A stretch of 34,833 nt of DNA from Alphaproteobacteria bacterium (GTDB lineage: Bacteria; Pseudomonadota; Alphaproteobacteria; Rs-D84). Below the pieces are notes generated by a model. It was not told the origin of the DNA. It did no database searches and saw only the letters and a list, made by a program, of their open reading frames with translations. The position numbers were made by a program, and so were the translations under genes. Below, in pieces: positions 3,196 to 33,884 of this stretch. The stretch's first letter is position 1, and each line of letters opens with the position of its first letter. Where the stretch lies: NCBI GenBank assembly GCA_009783145.1, contig WRHR01000002.1, positions 1 through 34,833 on the forward strand, written 5' to 3'.

Positions 3196-3213
3196 TTTCG
3201 TTTCCTTTTTGAG

Positions 3214-3274
3214 GTAGGAGGTTGAAGGTAGGAGGTTGGAGGTAATCAACTACCTCCTACCTTCAACCTCCTAC
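3214..3274. repeat. inverted heptamer array between tuf and rpsJ
   Basis: Arm 3214-3236 (units TAGGAGG and TTGAAGG alternating every 7 nt) is perfectly complementary to arm 3252-3274, a 23-bp stem around a 15-nt loop. Additional degenerate units continue to about 3282, next to the tuf stop codon. There is no T-run, so it is not an ordinary intrinsic terminator. The hairpin would form in the tuf-rpsJ transcript immediately before the rpsJ binding site. A related array is at 33347-33443. Confidence 0.9.
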
Positions 3275-3282
3275 TTCCAACC

Positions 3283-4470
3283 TTATTTGAGTATTTTCGA
3301 CACAACTCCCGCGCCGACAGTGCGTCCGCCTTCGCGGATAGCAAAGCGACGGCCCTCGTCCATAGCAATTGGAGCAATCAGCTTCACGGTGATGCGGACG
3401 TTGTCGCCCGGCAGAACCATTTCTTTGTCTTTCGGCAATTCGATAGTTCCGGTAACGTCGGTCGTGCTGAAGTAGAACTGCGGACGATAGTTGCTGAAGA
3501 ACGCCGTGTGGCGGCCGCCTTCGTCTTTCGTCAGAATATAGACTTCGGCTTCAAAGTCCGTATGCGGAGTAATGGAACCCGGCTTGCAGATAATCTGTCC
3601 GCGCTCCACATCTTCTTTCTTGGTGCCGCGCAGCAACAGGCCCACGTTGTCGCCAGCCTGGCCTTCGTCCAGCAATTTGCGGAACATTTCAACGCCGGTG
3701 ACGGTCGTTTTGGTCGTCGGACGCAGCCCCACGATTTCAACTTCCTCGCCGACTTTGACGATGCCCGATTCGATACGGCCGGTAACCACGGTACCGCGGC
3801 CGGTAATGGAGAACACGTCTTCAATCGGCATCAGGAACGGCTTGTCAACCGGGCGTTCCGGCATCGGGATAAAGGTATCGCATGCGTTCAGCAGGTTGTC
3901 GATGGATTCCTTGCCCAGCCCGTCGCTCTTGCCTTCGACGGCGGAAACGGCGGAGCCGCGGATAATCGGAGTCTTTTCGCCGTCAAAATTGTTGGCGGAC
4001 AGCAACTCGCGCAGTTCCATTTCGACCAGCTCCAGCAATTCCGAGTCATTCGCCAAGTCGCACTTGTTGAGATACACGACGATCTTCGGAATACCGACCT
4101 GACGCGCCAGCAGGATGTGCTCGCGAGTCTGAGGCATCGGGCCGTCGGTGGCCGCGCAGACCAATATCGCGCCGTCCATCTGGGCCGCGCCGGTAATCAT
4201 GTTTTTGACATAGTCCGCGTGTCCCGGGCAGTCGACGTGCGCATAGTGGCGGGTTTCGGTTTCATATTCCACGTGAGCGGTGTTGATTGTTATGCCGCGC
4301 GCTTTTTCTTCCGGCGCGTTGTCGATTTCCGCAACGCCTTTCTTCGCGTCGGCGCCGATGCCATAGTAATGCACTATGGCCGCGGTCAGCGTGGTTTTGC
4401 CGTGGTCAACGTGGCCGATTGTGCCGATGTTGACGTGCGGCTTGCTTCTTACGAACTTTTCTTTTGCCAT
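3283..4470 (-). CDS. tuf: Elongation factor Tu
   Basis: EF-Tu delivers aminoacyl-tRNA to the ribosome as a GTP complex. The 395-residue product shows G1 GHVDHGKTT (about residues 19-27), the switch I region [16 protein letters not shown]3 DCPGH, and G4 NKCD. It ends with the beta-barrel [15 protein letters not shown]. The catalytic His follows DCPG as usual. It lies between fusA and rpsJ, the canonical str-operon place; a good GGAG site precedes the start. Whether a second tuf copy exists cannot be seen here. Confidence 0.99.
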
Positions 4471-19962: not shown

Positions 19963-19981
19963 TTTCAACACTCCGTGTTTC

Positions 19982-20148
19982 AATTAGCAATTAGCAGTTA
20001 GCAGTTTATCATCTTGCTAAAACGCCATCGCGTAAAAGTTAAATTTAACGAAGAAATCTAAGGGTTTCTTAGTTAAATCCGATAAAAAATCGCAATAGCA
20101 AAAAGCAATCAGCAAAAAATTGCTAATTGCTAATTGCTAATTGCTAAT
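19982..20148. repeat. inverted heptamer array (AATTAGC) between rplL and rpoB
   Basis: Arm 19982-20004 has three AATTAGC-type units. The opposite arm, about 20119-20148, has four ATTGCTA units ending at the rplL stop codon. They pair over about 22 bp with one mismatch. The ~115-nt loop holds a second hairpin (TAAC-AAGAAA against TTTCTT-GTTA near 20046-20075). This is the position of the enterobacterial rplL-rpoB attenuator/RNase III site, so an effect on rpoB expression is possible. The same heptamer is used at 28885-29016. Confidence 0.85.
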
Positions 20149-20514
20149 TTACTTCAGCTCCACCTTTGCGCCGGCGGCTTCCAAAGTCGCCTTCAGCTTG
20201 TCGGCTTCGTCCTTGGACAGGCCTTCTTTGACCACTTTCGGCGCGGATTCCACGAACGCTTTCGCATCCCCAAGACCCAAACCGGTCGCGTCTTTCACGG
20301 CCTTGATAACGCCCAGCTTGTTCGCGCCGGCGTCAGCCAAGACCACATCAAATTCGGTCTTTTCTTCTGCCGCAGGACCAGCAGCCGGTCCAGCAACCGC
20401 AACCGCAGCAGCAGCGGATACGCCCCAGGTTTCTTCCAAAGCCTTGGACAATTCAACAGCTTCCAAAACGCTCAGTTTTGACAATTCTTCAACGATTTTT
20501 TTGATGTCAGCCAT
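20149..20514 (-). CDS. rplL: 50S ribosomal protein L7/L12
   Basis: The stalk protein that recruits translation GTPases; 121 residues. The N-terminal dimerisation helix ([28 protein letters not shown]), the Ala/Pro/Gly hinge (about 34-50) and the globular C-terminal domain ([40 protein letters not shown]) are all present. GGAG precedes the ATG by about 7 nt. It is flanked on both sides by heptamer arrays. Confidence 0.98.
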
Positions 20515-20537: not shown

Positions 20538-20674
20538 AGTGAATAGTGAATAGTGAATAGTGAATAGTGATTCTTTAATTATCAGCTATTTACCAACACA
20601 ACGAACTATGCACCTCTAATTTTTTGTTACGAATAGCGCAGTTTTCATGAATTTTTAACTATTCACTATTCACT
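20538..20674. repeat. inverted heptamer array (AGTGAAT) between rplJ and rplL
   Basis: Arm 20538-20570 is four tandem AGTGAAT units plus a partial fifth, starting 24 nt beyond the rplL start. Arm 20657-20674 (ATTCACT units) is complementary over about 17 bp. The 86-nt intervening sequence has no obvious feature. Confidence 0.88.
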
Positions 20675-20707
20675 AAAAAATAATTTTGCTTCGCAAAATT
20701 ATTTTTT
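20675..20707 (-). terminator. 15-bp hairpin over the rplJ stop codon, terminator or attenuator
   Basis: AAAAAATAATTTTGC, TTC, GCAAAATTATTTTTT form a perfect stem with a 3-nt loop. On the minus strand it ends in a T-run and contains the last rplJ codons and its TAA stop. The stem is A/T-rich, so termination is probably partial, which could help set the L10:L12 ratio. The apex is GC-TTC-GC like other mini-hairpins here. Confidence 0.6.
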
Positions 20708-21331: not shown

Positions 21332-21344
21332 AGAATTCCAATTT

Positions 21345-21424
21345 AGTTATAAGTTATAAGGGATAAGTTATAATAGACCAGACAACGCCGAACTATTATA
21401 ACTTATAACTTATCCTTTATAACT
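21345..21424. repeat. inverted heptamer array (TTATAAG) between rplA and rplJ
   Basis: Segment 21352-21373 is complementary to 21403-21424 over 22 nt with one mismatch; additional TTATAAG-type units extend both arms. The right arm overlaps the rplA stop codon (21423-21425). Confidence 0.87.
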
Positions 21425-22094
21425 ATATATTTATGCGCAATCCCGGTCCCTGAGTCGTAGAAACAGAGATTCCCATGATATATTGGCCTTTGCTGGATGA
21501 CGGTTTGATCTTCTTCAATTGGTCGATAAGCGCCATCGCGTTTTCAACCAACTGTTCGTTCTTGAACGACATCTTGCCCACGCCGGCATGTATAATGCCT
21601 TTCTTTTCCGCGCGATATTCGATCTGGCCCGCTTTTGCAGTCGCAACTGCATCAGCTATATTATTAGTAACCGTGCCAAGCTTCGGGTTCGGCATCAGGC
21701 CTTTCGGGCCCAAGACGCGCGCAACCTTCGACATCTTCGGCATCATATCCGGCGTCGCAATCACCCGGTCAAAATCCATGAATCCGCCCGCGATTTTCTC
21801 GATCAGCTCATCGGCGCCGATTACATCCGCGCCGGCCTTCTTCGCCTCGTCCGCTTTATCCACGGTAATAACAGCAACGCGGACTTTCTTGCCCGTGCCA
21901 TGAGGAAGCGAAAGCATTCCGCGAATATTTTGGTCCGCCTTGGTCACGTCAATTCCCAGCTTTACCGCAATTTCAAGGCTTTCATCGAACCTCGAACTGG
22001 CAAAACCGCGCAATAGCCCAACCGCTTCGGCAAGCGTATATGTTTTTTTCGCGTCCAATGATTCCCAAGTTTTAATTCTTTTCGTGATCTTCAT
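21423..22094 (-). CDS. rplA: 50S ribosomal protein L1
   Basis: L1 forms the mobile stalk at the E site. The 223-residue product starts MKITKRIKTWESLDAKKTYTL and shows the conserved LPHGTGKKVRVAV, the VIATPDMMPKMSKVARVLGPKGLMPNPKLGTVT signature, and GKMSFKNEQLVENAMALI. It is separated from rplK by 4 nt. Length is slightly below the usual ~230; no domain is missing. Confidence 0.98.
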   Translation of the reverse strand: MKITKRIKTWESLDAKKTYTLAEAVGLLRGFASSRFDESLEIAVKLGIDVTKADQNIRGMLSLPHGTGKKVRVAVITVDKADEAKKAGADVIGADELIEKIAGGFMDFDRVIATPDMMPKMSKVARVLGPKGLMPNPKLGTVTNNIADAVATAKAGQIEYRAEKKGIIHAGVGKMSFKNEQLVENAMALIDQLKKIKPSSSKGQYIMGISVSTTQGPGLRINI

Positions 22095-24520: not shown

Positions 24521-24545
24521 TTTTCGCGCATGCGCGAAAATCAAA
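24516..24545. repeat. perfect 30-bp palindrome over the virB8-like stop codon
   Basis: TTTGATTTTCGCGCA is followed directly by its reverse complement, with no spacer, and includes the TGA stop (24518-24520). It touches the first unit of the next heptamer array. In RNA it would fold as a very stable hairpin without a T-run, suggesting mRNA processing or stability rather than termination. Confidence 0.85.
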
Positions 24546-24676
24546 GAGCACAGAGCACAGAGCATAGAGCATAGTTGATGCCGAATGTTTTGAAGATTTG
24601 TGCCTTACGCAAAATTGAGGTAAAAGATGATGAAAATTAAAATATCTATGCTCTGTGCTCTGTGCTCTGTGCTCTG
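24545..24676. repeat. inverted heptamer array (AGAGCAC) whose right arm is coding
   Basis: Arm 24545-24567 (AGAGCAC twice, then AGAGCAT) is perfectly complementary to 24646-24668 (23 bp); the right arm continues to about 24676. The loop contains the binding site and start of the virB9-like gene, and the right arm is codons 7-17 of its signal peptide. Confidence 0.92.
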
Positions 24677-26135
24677 CATTTTCGGCTTTGCCGGAAATGC
24701 GCTTGCGGATATTCAAGATGCTTGGGATAATCCCGAGGCCAATATGATAACCGGATCGTCAAAGCCGGGATATGCGCGGCTTACCTGGTCGCCGGGCACG
24801 GTTCTGCCAATTCGTCTTCGCAACGGAATGGTGACTATGGTTAATCTGCCGGCGGGCGAAGTAATCGGCGAAGGCATTGTTGGTGATGATGGGCTGTTTG
24901 ACCTTCAACAAAAGGCTGGCGGAACCTCGTTTACTATAACGCCGGAATCAAGCAACCAAGGCAGCGACACCAACTTGATCGTTACCGGGCAATCCGGAAA
25001 CAAATATATTTTCTATCTTCGGTCCGAGCCAAGCAACGCATCGGAAATAACTTATTCGCTGGTGGATGTGGTGGTCGACGGAAACCGCGGGCTGCCCGTG
25101 GTTGCGGGAGCAAGCAACGGCAGCGGAAGCAGCGCCAACGTATTCGTTCAGCAAAAACAATCCGCCGGGGTGATCGGCGTTGACGGCGAAGATTACGGAT
25201 GGATAAAGACCATGAAGATAGATCCGTCCGAATTCCGTTTCGACCTGGATATTTTCGTGCCGAATCCGGACGACTTCGTAATCGCGCCGGAGCGCGTGTG
25301 GCGCGACAGAATCTTTACTTACATTGACTTTGGCGACAAGGTTATCGCGATGACTCAGCGTCCTGTCGTGTCCTTGTTGGTCGAAGGCGGCGAAAGCCCG
25401 GTCGGATTCCGCACCGACGGCGAGCACGGAAGACTGCTGATCGTCGAGGCCGTCGGCGATATGGTGCTGCGCAGCGGGCAGCGAATCGTCTGCATAAAGC
25501 GGCGCGCAAAGCCGTTCCTGATCGCGGACACCGCGTCGGTTATGGCGCTGGCCGAAGCAAACGTGATGCAAAGCATGCGTTCCGCGCAGTCGCTGAACAA
25601 CGTAGGATACGGCGGGATGCCGATGATGCAGACTGGCGTCCCGGCCTTCGCCGGGATGACAAACGACTATGGTGTTGGCGGATACGGGCAGCCGATGATG
25701 ATAATGCAGCCTGCGGCGAGCTTTGGCGGCGCATCGGGCACTGGCGCGGTTGGAATCAATATGCTTCCCTCCGAGCGTAACACGGCCGGCGCTTTTCTGC
25801 CTCAGACGGATATCCCGATTATAAGCTCCAATCAGGTCGGCGTCGCGGTGGAGTTGAAGTCCGATACAAGCGTCAAGGCTCTGAACGACTATTGGAACAA
25901 GCTGCTGATAAAATTCAGCGGCGACGAAGGCCAGGGATTGCTTAACCCTTATCGGGACAGAGTATTCTTCGCGGTCGATGAAAGCGGCGTCGGCCCGCTC
26001 GGCGCGACCAACTCTACCGCGCGCCTGTACAGGTTGCGCATAGGCCCGTTCGCGGATATAGACGACGCCCAGAAACTGTGCGACAGAATGACCAAGTTCC
26101 AAGGAACAAGCTGTCACGTGGTAAGAATCCAGTAG
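24627..26135 (+). CDS. Type IV secretion VirB9-like protein with C-terminal SPOR-like domain
   Basis: VirB9/TrbG/CagX proteins form the outer-membrane ring of the secretion core. The 502-residue precursor has a signal peptide (about 1-27) encoded largely by the heptamer array. The N-terminal VirB9 domain (YARLTWSPGTVLPIRLRNG) and a C-terminal VirB9 domain follow (VWRDRIFTYIDFGDK, RLLIVEAVGDMVLRSGQRIVCIK, about 222-295). A Gly/Met-rich linker (about 325-395) includes VPAFAGMTN, which is the translation of a common palindromic repeat (25639-25656). The last ~80 residues (LYRLRIGPFADIDDAQKLCDRM to HVVRIQ) match the SPOR pattern, a septal peptidoglycan-binding fold not usual in VirB9. GAGG is 6 nt before the first ATG. 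Confidence 0.85.
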   Translation: MMKIKISMLCALCSVLCIFGFAGNALADIQDAWDNPEANMITGSSKPGYARLTWSPGTVLPIRLRNGMVTMVNLPAGEVIGEGIVGDDGLFDLQQKAGGTSFTITPESSNQGSDTNLIVTGQSGNKYIFYLRSEPSNASEITYSLVDVVVDGNRGLPVVAGASNGSGSSANVFVQQKQSAGVIGVDGEDYGWIKTMKIDPSEFRFDLDIFVPNPDDFVIAPERVWRDRIFTYIDFGDKVIAMTQRPVVSLLVEGGESPVGFRTDGEHGRLLIVEAVGDMVLRSGQRIVCIKRRAKPFLIADTASVMALAEANVMQSMRSAQSLNNVGYGGMPMMQTGVPAFAGMTNDYGVGGYGQPMMIMQPAASFGGASGTGAVGINMLPSERNTAGAFLPQTDIPIISSNQVGVAVELKSDTSVKALNDYWNKLLIKFSGDEGQGLLNPYRDRVFFAVDESGVGPLGATNSTARLYRLRIGPFADIDDAQKLCDRMTKFQGTSCHVVRIQ

Positions 26136-28860: not shown

Positions 28861-28884
28861 AACGCAGCGAAAGCCGCGTTTTTT
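28861..28884 (+). terminator. intrinsic terminator after the virB10-like gene
   Basis: AACGC-A-GC, GAAA, GC-C-GCGTT followed by TTTT, one mismatch in the stem, starting 2 nt after the TAA. It implies that the next two genes may have their own promoter or depend on read-through. Confidence 0.7.
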
Positions 28885-29016
28885 AATTAGCAATGAGCAA
28901 TTAGCGATTAGCAATTATAAATTGATTTTTTCGCGATTTTATGATACTCTTCTCCAAAGAGAGAAATGAACAAATTTATCAAATCATTGCTAATCGCTAA
29001 TTGCTCATTGCTAATT
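28885..29016. repeat. perfect 31-bp inverted heptamer array (AATTAGC) whose right arm is coding
   Basis: 28885-28915 is an exact reverse complement of 28986-29016, with units AATTAGC, AATGAGC, AATTAGC, GATTAGC. The 70-nt loop holds the binding site and start codon of the next gene; the right arm is codons 7-17 of its signal peptide. Single-base variants of the units (for example the G in AATGAGC) are mirrored in both arms. The mini-hairpin GCAACGGC-TTC-GCCGTTGC (29017-29035) follows directly. Confidence 0.95.
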
Positions 29017-31128
29017 GCAACGGCTTCGCCGTTGCGTGCGGACAGTCCCATCGGCGGGCCGGGGCCGGCATTCCAGAACAGCGGAGGACTTCAGGGAAAT
29101 CGTACCGTATTTACCGGCAACATGGGCGCGATGAATAATAATCAGTGGAATAACACGATGAACCCGAACCCAAAGGGCCAGGGGGGGGCGACCGCCGACT
29201 TTGGAAATTGCAATTCCCTTATCTTGCGCTGCGCCCAGCCTAAATGCGCCGGGTGCACAAGCATGGAGTTGGCTATTCCGATCGTAAACGGCTGCGTGCA
29301 GAGCAACCCTGCGTGCAAGCAATACGGCGACGACTTGGTGCAAAGCATGGCGGCGCAACTGGTCAGCAGCGCGAATTCCAAGGCGAATGACGCGCAGGCG
29401 GCCGCAGCACAAGCGGCGGCGGCTCAAAGCGCGGCGCAATCATCGGCGGTGATGGAGCAGATGCAAATGCAGATGCAGCAGATGCAGATGGAAATGCAGC
29501 AGCAATCGGCGCAGAGCGCAATGGCGGTGCAGCAGGCGCTGGAAGAACAAAAGCAGTTGGCGGCCGAGCAAGCGGCGCAAGCGGCAGCGGCACAAGCGGC
29601 GGCGGCGGCGGCGACGCAGGCCGCAGCACCGGCGCAAGTGATACAAACCGCGGCGGCGGCGGGAGTGTCTGCGGATGTCTTGGCACGCGAGCAGATCGGC
29701 GGGAAAATATTGACTCAGATAGAAAATGCCGAGGTCGCGCTGAAAGAGATGAAGAACACCATGCAGAATGTTTTTGCATACGCGCGGTGCGACGCGAACG
29801 GAAACAATTGCCAGGGACCGCGGCGAGTAAAGGCTTTCAAGGCAAAGGCGAACAATTTTTTTGACCCGTATGAAAGGGTGCTGGACGAGATTTACGATGC
29901 GCTGATTCTGGCGCAAAGCCTGGGCGTGGATATCAGCGATATTTATATGATGCTGAACGGTTCGTGCAATGTCTGGGGAAAATATATGTGCCAGCCTTGT
30001 GATGGACCCACATATGATAAAGATAACAAATTAATTAATAGCGGTGCTTATGTAAGCGGCAATGTTATACATGAATGCACCAGCAATACTCGTAGTGACT
30101 CTACTAATGTATCCGGCTATTTTTACGACGTGGCGAAAGTTTGTGAGGAAGGAAAAAACTGCAAGGTATCGCCCGTGCAACATAGATGCACTCTTCTGCA
30201 AATGCTGACCAATAACGAAGAGATTCAACAGAACTGGCTGGATATGGATGCGGGGTCTTCGGGCGGAATTCGCGTTGCGTGCGCTTCGGACGCTTTGGAG
30301 AACTCCACTCTGTTCCGCAATCGCAAAAAGCAGGCCAGCATTGATATAGAAACCTTGCAGCAGATAATAAATCAAGACACGCCAAATATCTTCCGCAGCC
30401 TGGAGGATGCGCAGGCAGCCTTGAAATATTGCAGCATAGCCGACGAAGATATCGCGACTTTGCAAGTTCTTACGCAAAAGAAAACTCTTACTGCAACCGG
30501 CGGAGATTGGCGCAAAGTATGCGTAGCGGACAAAGACCTCAAACCGCGTGGCATTGTCGGCGCGATAACCATAACGCCTTCAAGCTGCGAGGCTGGTGTC
30601 ATTGCAACATTTGAAGAGCGAATAATCGGCTGCACCGGCGAAGCGAAAGACCTTTGCATACAGCAATATCAACACCAAAAAGATTCCAAAATCGCGCAAT
30701 GCAAAGCGGACCAAGCGGCAGCCGACGCGAAATGCATTGGGACCAGCGGACGCCTGGAAAATGGCAAATGCATATGCCCAGACACTCCGCCATTATATAT
30801 GCGATTTGTTTATGGCCGTGGATGCGTAGGTGGTGCGGAGTATAATGATATATTCCAAAACACATATACGCCGCCAGCCCAATTTGTGCCACAACCATGG
30901 TTGCCAACCACCGATGTTGACAAACCAAGCGGGGGGGTTAGTAATACTGCAAATACGAATACTGCAAATAAGAATACAAATGTTAAACCACCAGCTACTT
31001 TAACATTTGAGCAAATGCAGCAAAAGTCAAAATGCCCGGGCGCAGGCGGTCAATGGAATGAAACCGGTAAAATGTGTGATTGTTCAAAAGCTGCAAACTT
31101 TATGACATGCTTGCAAAAGTTGAAATAA
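28966..31128 (+). CDS. Unknown exported Cys-rich protein with Ala/Gln coiled coil, linked to the T4SS genes
   Basis: I do not recognise the family. The 720-residue precursor has signal peptide MNKFIKSLLIANCSLLIATA with cleavage near residue 25. An Asn/Gly-rich start and a Cys cluster (CNSLILRCAQPKCAGC, about 83-98) follow. Next are a long Ala/Gln/Met coiled coil (about 140-235), a mixed domain with many paired Cys (to about 620), a CICPD segment, and a low-complexity Asn/Thr linker before a final Cys-rich motif. Periplasmic or surface location with disulfides is inferred. A G8 tract (29181-29188, codon ~72) and a G7 tract (30931-30937) are slippage-prone. It lies directly after the virB10-like gene, so a secretion-accessory or substrate role is plausible. 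Confidence 0.8.
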   Translation: MNKFIKSLLIANCSLLIATASPLRADSPIGGPGPAFQNSGGLQGNRTVFTGNMGAMNNNQWNNTMNPNPKGQGGATADFGNCNSLILRCAQPKCAGCTSMELAIPIVNGCVQSNPACKQYGDDLVQSMAAQLVSSANSKANDAQAAAAQAAAAQSAAQSSAVMEQMQMQMQQMQMEMQQQSAQSAMAVQQALEEQKQLAAEQAAQAAAAQAAAAAATQAAAPAQVIQTAAAAGVSADVLAREQIGGKILTQIENAEVALKEMKNTMQNVFAYARCDANGNNCQGPRRVKAFKAKANNFFDPYERVLDEIYDALILAQSLGVDISDIYMMLNGSCNVWGKYMCQPCDGPTYDKDNKLINSGAYVSGNVIHECTSNTRSDSTNVSGYFYDVAKVCEEGKNCKVSPVQHRCTLLQMLTNNEEIQQNWLDMDAGSSGGIRVACASDALENSTLFRNRKKQASIDIETLQQIINQDTPNIFRSLEDAQAALKYCSIADEDIATLQVLTQKKTLTATGGDWRKVCVADKDLKPRGIVGAITITPSSCEAGVIATFEERIIGCTGEAKDLCIQQYQHQKDSKIAQCKADQAAADAKCIGTSGRLENGKCICPDTPPLYMRFVYGRGCVGGAEYNDIFQNTYTPPAQFVPQPWLPTTDVDKPSGGVSNTANTNTANKNTNVKPPATLTFEQMQQKSKCPGAGGQWNETGKMCDCSKAANFMTCLQKLK

Positions 31129-32814: not shown

Positions 32815-33354
32815 ATGAAAATAATTATCGGCTTCACACATAAAACCAGCAAAATTCTACCAAAGATTTTCTGCCGCAACTTTCGCCACTGCGCGGTGAT
32901 AACAGAGAATCCCAGTAGGCAACTTGTTGCCTTTACGAGGATACGCACAGACGCGAAGCGGCGAGCGAATAAAGAAAAAAGAACAAAGAATAAATATATT
33001 ATGATTCAGGTAGGATTTGGCGCAATAAAATTCATACCATTGCAAAAACGCGATTTGAAAATTCTGGAGCAGCACGGCTGGATGTTCGTCCCCCTTGTTA
33101 AAGGGGGAAAATTTCTTGGTGAGCAACGCGAGCCTAGAAATTTAGGGGGATTATTTTGTAATACGCGAACATTACACGACAATCCCCCTATTTTGCTAAA
33201 TTCGCCGCATAGCGGCTCATTAAGCAAAATTCCCCCTTTAACAAGGGGGACGACCTGCGTTGGTTTTGCAAAACGCGCGTTGGGAATTCGGCGGCCTCTT
33301 ATCTGGACGCCGGACCAGCTATACAGGCATATTCAGGTAGAAAGTAGGAAGTAG
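32815..33354 (+). CDS. Possible NlpC/P60-like cysteine peptidase, interrupted by inserted repeats
   Basis: The 179-residue frame reads as conserved pieces separated by repeat-derived sequence. Pieces: MKIIIGFTHKTSK, NFRHCAVI (His 25), YIMIQVGFGAIKFIPLQKRDLKILEQHGWMFV, then CVGFAKRALGIR (Cys 148) and PLIWTPDQLYRHI. His-before-Cys order suggests a permuted NlpC/P60 (YaeF/LRAT-like) fold; this is inference. Residues ~92-146 are encoded by the 164-bp element at 33088-33251. Residues ~33-60 come from a hairpin (AGGCAAC-TT-GTTGCCT, 32918-32933) plus heptads GAATAAA/GAAAAAA/GAACAAA (32964-32996). The frame stays open throughout. It may be a functional gene with tolerated inserts or a decaying one. 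Confidence 0.6.
   Translation: MKIIIGFTHKTSKILPKIFCRNFRHCAVITENPSRQLVAFTRIRTDAKRRANKEKRTKNKYIMIQVGFGAIKFIPLQKRDLKILEQHGWMFVPLVKGGKFLGEQREPRNLGGLFCNTRTLHDNPPILLNSPHSGSLSKIPPLTRGTTCVGFAKRALGIRRPLIWTPDQLYRHIQVESRK
33088..33251. repeat. 164-bp multi-hairpin element with terminal inverted repeats (copy 2), inside a CDS
   Basis: The outer 22 nt at each end are perfect inverted repeats (GTCCCCCTTGTTAAAGGGGG plus AA). Inner pairs correspond to those of copy 1 at 14028-14205. The central hairpin is TGTAAT/ATTACA instead of the 9-bp one in copy 1, and GCCGC-ATA-GCGGC (33204-33216) replaces GCGC-GAG-GCGC. It interrupts the possible peptidase between its His and Cys parts without introducing a stop. Confidence 0.9.
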
Positions 33355-33449
33355 GAGGTAAGAGGTGGGCGATTATGAATTAATTCTATAAATTAAAAGA
33401 GAGGCTTTACTCTCTTATTTTATACCTCCTACCTCCTACTTCCAACCTC
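33337..33449. repeat. inverted heptamer array (GTAGGAG) between the peptidase-like gene and fabZ
   Basis: 33347-33366 pairs with 33424-33443 over 20 nt with one mismatch. The left arm encodes the last residues of the upstream frame; the right arm runs to the fabZ stop. The loop holds AAGAGAG-GCTTTA-CTCTCTT (33397-33416), a small bidirectional terminator for these convergent genes. The heptamer is close to that at 3214-3274. Confidence 0.87.
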
Positions 33450-33884
33450 CTACTTATTAACGTCCATTATTGCCGAGAATGTCGCCTCGCTGACTTTCTT
33501 TCCGCCGACCATCGCTATGCCGTGGAATTTATAAAGGCTCATTTTTTTCATCAGCAGTTCCACATGCAATTCCAGCACGTCGCCCGGCAGCACCATATGA
33601 TAAAACTTTATCTTTTCCATGGTGGTGAAGTATCCCAGGTTCTTGGTGCCCTTGGTGCCCAGCGCAGAAAACGCAATAAAGCACGCCGTTTGCGCCAAAG
33701 CCTCTACCTGCAATACCCCCGGCATAATCGGCCGACCCGGAAAGTGCCCGGCGCACCAGAACTCGTCATCGCGAACATACTTTATTCCGACGCCGCTGGC
33801 TTCGTCCGCCTCTCGGATTTCATCCACCATTCGCATGTCAAAGCGATGCGGGATTATTTCTTCTATGCCTTTCGTATCGATCAT
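33450..33884 (-). CDS. fabZ: 3-hydroxyacyl-[acyl-carrier-protein] dehydratase FabZ
   Basis: FabZ dehydrates beta-hydroxyacyl-ACP in fatty acid synthesis and shares substrates with the lipid A pathway. The start at the ATG complementary to 33882-33884 (MIDTKGIEEIIPHRFDM) overlaps the lpxD stop as ATGA and has AGGTGAAG upstream, giving 144 residues. The catalytic His lies in AGHFPGRPIMPGVLQVEALAQ, with the partner Glu in VEAL. The family PHRYPFLL motif is altered to PHRFDMRM. Order lpxD-fabZ is standard. Confidence 0.96.
   Translation of the reverse strand: MIDTKGIEEIIPHRFDMRMVDEIREADEASGVGIKYVRDDEFWCAGHFPGRPIMPGVLQVEALAQTACFIAFSALGTKGTKNLGYFTTMEKIKFYHMVLPGDVLELHVELLMKKMSLYKFHGIAMVGGKKVSEATFSAIMDVNK

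Follow-up and report, generated by a model that had tools for sequence, protein, structure and literature searches.

Tandem heptamer arrays encode the export tags of many putative secreted proteins in a family of gut Alphaproteobacteria

Judged from predicted signal peptides, many putative secreted proteins of one family of gut Alphaproteobacteria have export tags that are encoded by tandem heptamer arrays. The analysed DNA was a stretch of 34,833 nt, here called the window, from the genome of an Alphaproteobacteria bacterium coded G000. This genome comprised 947 kb on 24 contigs, and 435 kb (46%) were sampled as the window and 20 further stretches, with 44 kb masked. Smaller parts of four other genomes were sampled as well; the genomes were MAGs. 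Genes were called with a home-made program, and signal peptides were predicted by a heuristic rule. The T4SS genes VirB8, VirB9/CagX and VirB10/TrbI were tested with Pfam, and all other gene names were read from the sequence.

Heptamer hairpins in the window

The window held two heptamer hairpins at predicted signal peptides, one at the gene of the predicted exported protein P0001 (28885-29016) and one at the gene for VirB9. Five further heptamer hairpins were located elsewhere in the window. The features were as follows.

28885..28918, plus strand: left, non-coding arm of the P0001 hairpin, an AATTAGC array, exact complement over 28885-28915
28916..28985, plus strand: 70-nt loop with native promoter-like and Shine-Dalgarno region and start codon, from alignment to relatives
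28986..29016, plus strand: right arm, forming the signal-peptide h-region, codons 8-17 (LLIANCSLLI)
29017..29035, plus strand: perfect 8-bp mini-hairpin GCAACGGC-TTC-GCCGTTGC, codons 18-24
28966..31128, plus strand: P0001, predicted exported protein of 720 aa
24545..24574, plus strand: left arm of the VirB9 hairpin, an AGAGCAC array
24645..24676, plus strand: right arm of the VirB9 hairpin (paired arm 24646-24675), h-region SMLCALCSVLC, a TCTGTGC array
24627..26135, plus strand: VirB9/CagX protein of 502 aa with a C-terminal SPOR domain
3208..3280, unstranded: heptamer hairpin of the GGTAGGA type, near the start of a minus-strand ORF
19981..20149, unstranded: heptamer hairpin of the AATTAGC type, between the rpoB-like ORF and the next ORF
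20538..20675, unstranded: heptamer hairpin of the AGTGAAT type
21341..21428, unstranded: heptamer hairpin of the AGTTATA type
33337..33453, unstranded: heptamer hairpin of the GTAGGAA type

The original prediction of exact 31-bp inverted arms with the start codon in a 70-nt loop was confirmed by complementarity and coordinates. The arms at 28885-28915 and 28986-29016 were perfect complements across all 31 nt (97% over 34 nt), and the ATG of P0001 at 28966 was located inside the loop (28916-28985). Shuffling the entire window 40 times with a Markov-1 model gave no exact inverted repeat longer than 14 nt. Low complexity or chance as the source of the hairpin was ruled out by these shuffles and the excess of period 7 described below. 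Folded as single-stranded RNA, 28880-29025 reached -54 kcal/mol (z = -10). The right arm had been assigned to codons 7-17 (LLIANCSLLIA). It is indeed an in-frame h-region, but its true span runs from the last base of codon 7 to codon 17. The mini-hairpin had been placed at the cleavage-site region, which was borne out, with codons 18-24 directly preceding the predicted cleavage site after Ala25.

In the right arm, the GCTCATT variant places TCA in frame at a position where GCTAATT would have put a TAA stop codon. Off-consensus letters were common to both arms and in register in 2/2 cases. The presence of the GCTCATT variant in the non-coding arm as well suggests that one arm was copied from the other, or that both descend from a pair with this variant. 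The loop resembled the corresponding region of 4 relatives from four genera without the arm (TATGATA...AAGAGAGA..ATGA in the alignment). Since the loop aligned in genera lacking the arm, the arms flank native DNA and do not form an element around foreign sequence. Scans found neither a consensus sigma-70 site nor a terminator near the hairpin; from its conservation, the loop may contain a promoter. The Rfam search of the window returned only tRNAs and no other RNA family. P0001 matched no family in the Pfam search, and matches to it were found in 30 of the 60 relatives searched.

Another case with a different heptamer and the same design had also been proposed and was found at VirB9. Its arms (24545-24574 and 24646-24675) were complementary at 29 of 30 positions, and the start codon at 24627 was located in the loop. 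Like the P0001 gene, the VirB9 gene has a mini-hairpin (GCATTTTCGGC...GCCGGAAATGC, 24670-24700) between its array and the cleavage region.

Period-7 arrays and their enrichment in signal peptides

In the 435 kb of G000, 104 period-7 arrays were detected, and other unit periods from 4 to 13 gave 0-6. The heptamer pattern ATTAGCAATTAGC, with one mismatch allowed, occurred 61 + 68 times in G000 (2 + 2 for the reversed control). Arrays of the G000 sample were mostly arranged in inverted pairs. For neighbouring arrays within 200 bp, the ratio of inverted to direct pairs was 47:0 in G000, 13:0 in G003 and 4:0 in G011. Array lengths peaked at 30-34 nt, near 31-32, corresponding to about 4-5 units (~4.4) that were often interrupted. 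Lengths also peaked at 31 nt in loci of other phyla; as a 21-nt heptamer pattern had served to select these loci, only the additional arrays in them are unbiased. Many hairpins contained a core palindrome (ATTGTCCATTATAATGGACAAT and variants) within heptamer arms of many flavours, among others at L036 10404-10523, L044 15805-15933 and L045 12995-13110, giving the look of a composite element with exchangeable arms.

Intergenic arrays accounted for 87 of 152. The array density in G000 was 1.64/kb in signal-peptide N-termini, 1.05/kb in intergenic DNA and 0.17/kb in the rest of the coding sequence. Signal-peptide N-termini thus had about ten times the density of the remaining coding sequence, a value similar to that of intergenic DNA. 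Arrays were present in 11 of 69 signal-peptide N-termini of G000 (about 16%), compared with 5 of 241 other N-termini and 32 of 2308 internal coding blocks (1.4%). The corresponding numbers for signal-peptide N-termini were 4/58 in G001, 3/33 in G003, 4/44 in G011 and 0/25 in G035, which held no array at the strict threshold. Repeats at the control lags 5, 6, 8, 9 and 10 were not found in signal peptides. In each sampled genome with arrays, no other part of the coding sequence was as dense in arrays as the signal-peptide N-termini. All five arrays (5/5) in 219 kb of G001 were signal peptides, including that of an initially missed 46-aa lipoprotein.

Pattern searches gave the same picture. Across the whole of G000, 19 genes combined an ATGAAR start with a subsequent TTTATTC or TCTNTGC array; most of them read as signal peptides, and the reversed control gave 0. 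An example of a heptamer-built signal peptide in G000 is MKKFILYSLFFILC. The scan of 84,980 species with the TCTNTGC signal-peptide pattern yielded 48 stretches, 23 of them classed as gut Proteobacteria of the G000 kind, mostly termite MAGs. With ORFs of at least 90 aa required, 18/24 matches in the gut-Proteobacteria stretches and 11/25 matches elsewhere (Nitrospirae, Omnitrophota, Treponema and others) read as signal peptides. Carriers included DacA-, TolC- and LptD-like proteins, lipoproteins and an LspA-like protein with the array at its N-terminal membrane helix, so the proposed T4SS linkage proved incidental. Inside some heptamer signal peptides (L303; L032 1751-3124), a peptide resembling a palindromic element, ARRFASxRILVKA, combined two repeat kinds in one export tag.

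In-frame arrays and pairs also occurred internally in coding sequence. Internal arrays encoded mostly hydrophilic heptads (QSTEHRA, RETRNAK) and signal-peptide arrays hydrophobic ones, as selection would sort them. Hairpins of CGAAACG/CGAGACG inside ORFs encoded charged heptads (RETRNAK) in frame at L032 14523-15775, L043 15328-15412 and L042 12766-12840. Some hairpins of this kind were clear insertions relative to orthologs. The idea that arrays in internal loops overwrite rather than insert was dropped, as the cases were mixed and several were plain insertions.

Turnover of heptamers and upstream arms

The heptamer at a given site changed between orthologs. DacA-like signal peptides from nine species carried TTTATTC, TTTTGCC, TCATTGT, TGTCGCT, CTTATCA, TGCCTTA, TATCTGT, TTTTCAC and TTTATTT, and the PilQ-like, VirB9 and P0001 families likewise carried varied heptamers. 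A lipoprotein of 45/46 aa showed TTTGCTC in one species and the TCTGTGC type in another species of the same genus, while the mature part differed at one place. Turnover was also found outside signal peptides. The same two loops of a KsgA-like protein were occupied by different inverted pairs, of AGAGTGA in G000 and of the ATGGATA type in G003; in G014, AAAATTG was present in one of these loops. The flavour was the same in 12/87 ortholog pairs versus 29/127 within-genome pairs. The latter value exceeded the shuffled one (p = 0.03), a weak clustering of flavours by genome. The length from Met to the conserved part was not raised by an array in signal peptides, which points to net replacement. 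Residual 7-periodicity in array-free signal peptides was absent in G000 and at most slight in G003, so the arrays look young.

An inverted upstream partner was present at 10 of 57 non-redundant signal-peptide arrays (about one in five). With 47 of 57 lacking it, the hairpin is not a general design of these signal peptides. Every upstream partner was located before the ATG. Direct copies were not found near the 57 arrays, and the sole downstream partner belonged to a hydrophilic CGAAACG array. When further signal peptides were screened, as proposed, for a 7-residue period and an arm upstream, a third hairpin of the same design was found in G000, at the DacA-like gene. G003 had such hairpins at VirB9 and at the PilQ-like lipoprotein, G013 had one at VirB9, and four genes of gut relatives also carried one. 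Together with signal peptides that were 7-periodic far beyond chance, these hairpins support the recurrence that had been proposed. The VirB9 hairpin carried another heptamer in each of G000, G003 and G013, so both arms differ together. The loops of signal-peptide hairpins contained the gene's own upstream region and start. Across all hairpins, 17 variants were shared between arms versus 9 expected. General concerted variation between arms is thus weakly supported, and arm-to-arm copying is not general.

Origin of the arrays and comparison with known systems

The explanation that we consider probable is a recurrent deposition of heptamer tracts at tolerant sites, the T-rich ones serving as signal-peptide cores, around a native loop and with arms plausibly kept alike by template switching. 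A recurrent mutational process would lay tracts of ~31-32 nt, with 4-5 heptamer copies, usually as inverted pairs and from a modest set of heptamers per genome. We infer that tolerance acts as the filter: tracts would persist downstream of stop codons and, within genes, in hydrophilic loops and signal-peptide h-regions. As 7 mod 3 = 1, every reading frame of a heptamer array encodes the same heptapeptide. With a T-rich heptamer that lacks stops, the array would always yield a hydrophobic stretch that can act as a signal-peptide core, and any such heptamer should work as an h-region because of this frame independence. Over time, one heptamer array would replace another at a given site, with the mature protein remaining conserved. 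At 28885-29016, an AATTGCT-type array with a stop-avoiding variant has its inverted counterpart ahead of the gene's own promoter-like region, and quasipalindrome template switching between the arms during replication is the likeliest source of the exact 31-bp match. Such switching between arms of inverted repeats is documented in the available text of PMC8604942, PMC8794818 and PMC7202029, where it homogenises arms, also in coding sequence. Template switching explains matching arms and not tandem heptamers. The array period, length and inversion bias, the signal-peptide enrichment, the turnover and the similarity of the loop to relatives were direct observations on which the proposed export function, template switching and filter would build. 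The arrays of G001, all in signal peptides, are not predicted by pure tolerance and count against tolerance alone.

The last observation, together with the top coding density of arrays in signal-peptide N-termini of every array-bearing genome sampled, would fit a process directed at signal peptides, in which secreted-protein genes are actively diversified by heptamer rewriting of the h-region. The original prediction of a process that builds or diversifies signal peptides gains from the different heptamers of orthologs. It loses from arrays of the same kind, length and turnover in intergenic DNA and in internal loops such as those of KsgA, and conserved housekeeping genes without an obvious benefit of diversification are among the carriers. 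A directed process is therefore considered unlikely, and the heptamer process is probably not specific to signal peptides. The common core palindrome (GTCCATTATAATGGAC type) in the heptamer arms of many intergenic hairpins, some of which look composite, would instead suit insertion, at the gene start, of a MITE-like mobile element whose terminal inverted repeats consist of heptamers. This is quite improbable given the alignment of loop 28916-28985 with relatives lacking arms, the native upstream region and start in signal-peptide loops, and the many different heptamers around one core type; moreover, the loops of both signal-peptide cases in the window were unlike the intergenic core types.

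Two further explanations concern single genes. In Neisseria, the CTCTT repeats of opa, a pentamer confined to one gene family, encode the leader-peptide core and are phase-variable. The arrays of G000 share with this precedent a short unit that is not a multiple of three within the leader, so gain or loss of one heptamer could shift the frame and turn the protein off. They differ in unit length and in not being confined to one gene family. With only ~4.4, often interrupted units, slippage should be slow; array length was sharply peaked, and DacA- and LspA-like carriers are expected to be always on, making phase variation very unlikely. Least likely is a regulatory RNA hairpin, in which the 31-bp stem controls translation of P0001. 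The very stable fold (z = -10) would allow it, but the conserved promoter-like region in the loop would exclude the left arm from the gene's own transcript, and most signal-peptide arrays lack the upstream arm.

No candidate heptamer-writing enzyme was identified among transposase, reverse-transcriptase and SbcC searches. The Y1 transposase PF01797 (REPIN/RAYT) had no match in G000 and any match in only 3 of 36 genomes, and a RAYT transposase was rejected as the cause in view of its absence from G000. A reverse transcriptase was likewise rejected, since that of G000 is a DGR reverse transcriptase and the array-rich G011 had no RVT_1 match. The DGR was located in L293 (G000:C1:36001-44000), with RT at 3297-4313, TR at 2546-2665 and VR at 1604-1723, the latter in the end of a 244-aa ORF. 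All ten TR-to-VR differences (10/10) fell on template adenines. Full-length SbcC was not detected in the order (G000 and 36 relatives); the Walker B domain gave weak matches in frames of ~350-490 aa. Palindromes would be permitted in this situation, but array-free genomes share the absence, which is therefore permissive at best. It is doubtful, though conceivable, that an undescribed DNA-writing activity spread across several phyla lays down tracts of a fixed ~31 nt and period 7 as inverted pairs around native DNA, with few heptamers per genome, and in this way rewrites hydrophobic signal-peptide cores again and again.

Heptamer arrays, inverted pairs and 4-5 units are already known from Xanthomonas and Geobacter, as is a repeat-derived predicted signal peptide from Yersinia. 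The GGGAATC heptameric repeats of Xanthomonas and Nostoc, with 70-75 inverted close pairs per Xanthomonas genome, share with G000 the period of 7, mostly four units, inverted close pairs and a location mostly shortly behind the preceding ORF; prominent repeats are found at different genes in sister species, as in the G000 family (PMC4692102). Unlike G000, they comprise one heptamer type per genome, are mostly intergenic and have no reported signal-peptide role (PMC4692102). According to the available text on Geobacter metallireducens, its elements also consist of 4-5 tandem heptamers in and between genes, one class being a folded-back pair, whereas they have two consensus heptamers and no signal-peptide use is reported there (PMC2700814). 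Direct repeats of TAACTGA also form heptamer arrays, sometimes inside ORFs near their ends, but are almost never inverted and were read as upstream translation signals (PMC4679880). In Yersinia YPO1552, the small mobile repeat RU-2 gave rise to a predicted signal peptide, as a single case with a 168-bp element, without heptamers or turnover (PMC2759123). Rickettsia palindromic elements are, in the available text of the same source, palindromic repeats inserted in alphaproteobacterial protein genes as well; they have a conserved sequence, whereas the P0001 loop is native and the arm heptamer varies (PMC2759123). As far as the literature covered here shows, what is new is how widely heptamer arrays are used in signal peptides and that orthologous sites switch heptamers.

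These findings raise the question of why array length is ~31 nt in unrelated bacteria, and why pairs are here inverted and never direct. If the proposed explanation is true, the arrays would represent a mutational route to new signal peptides, in which a repeat readable in all frames can replace an export tag, and can do so again in each species.
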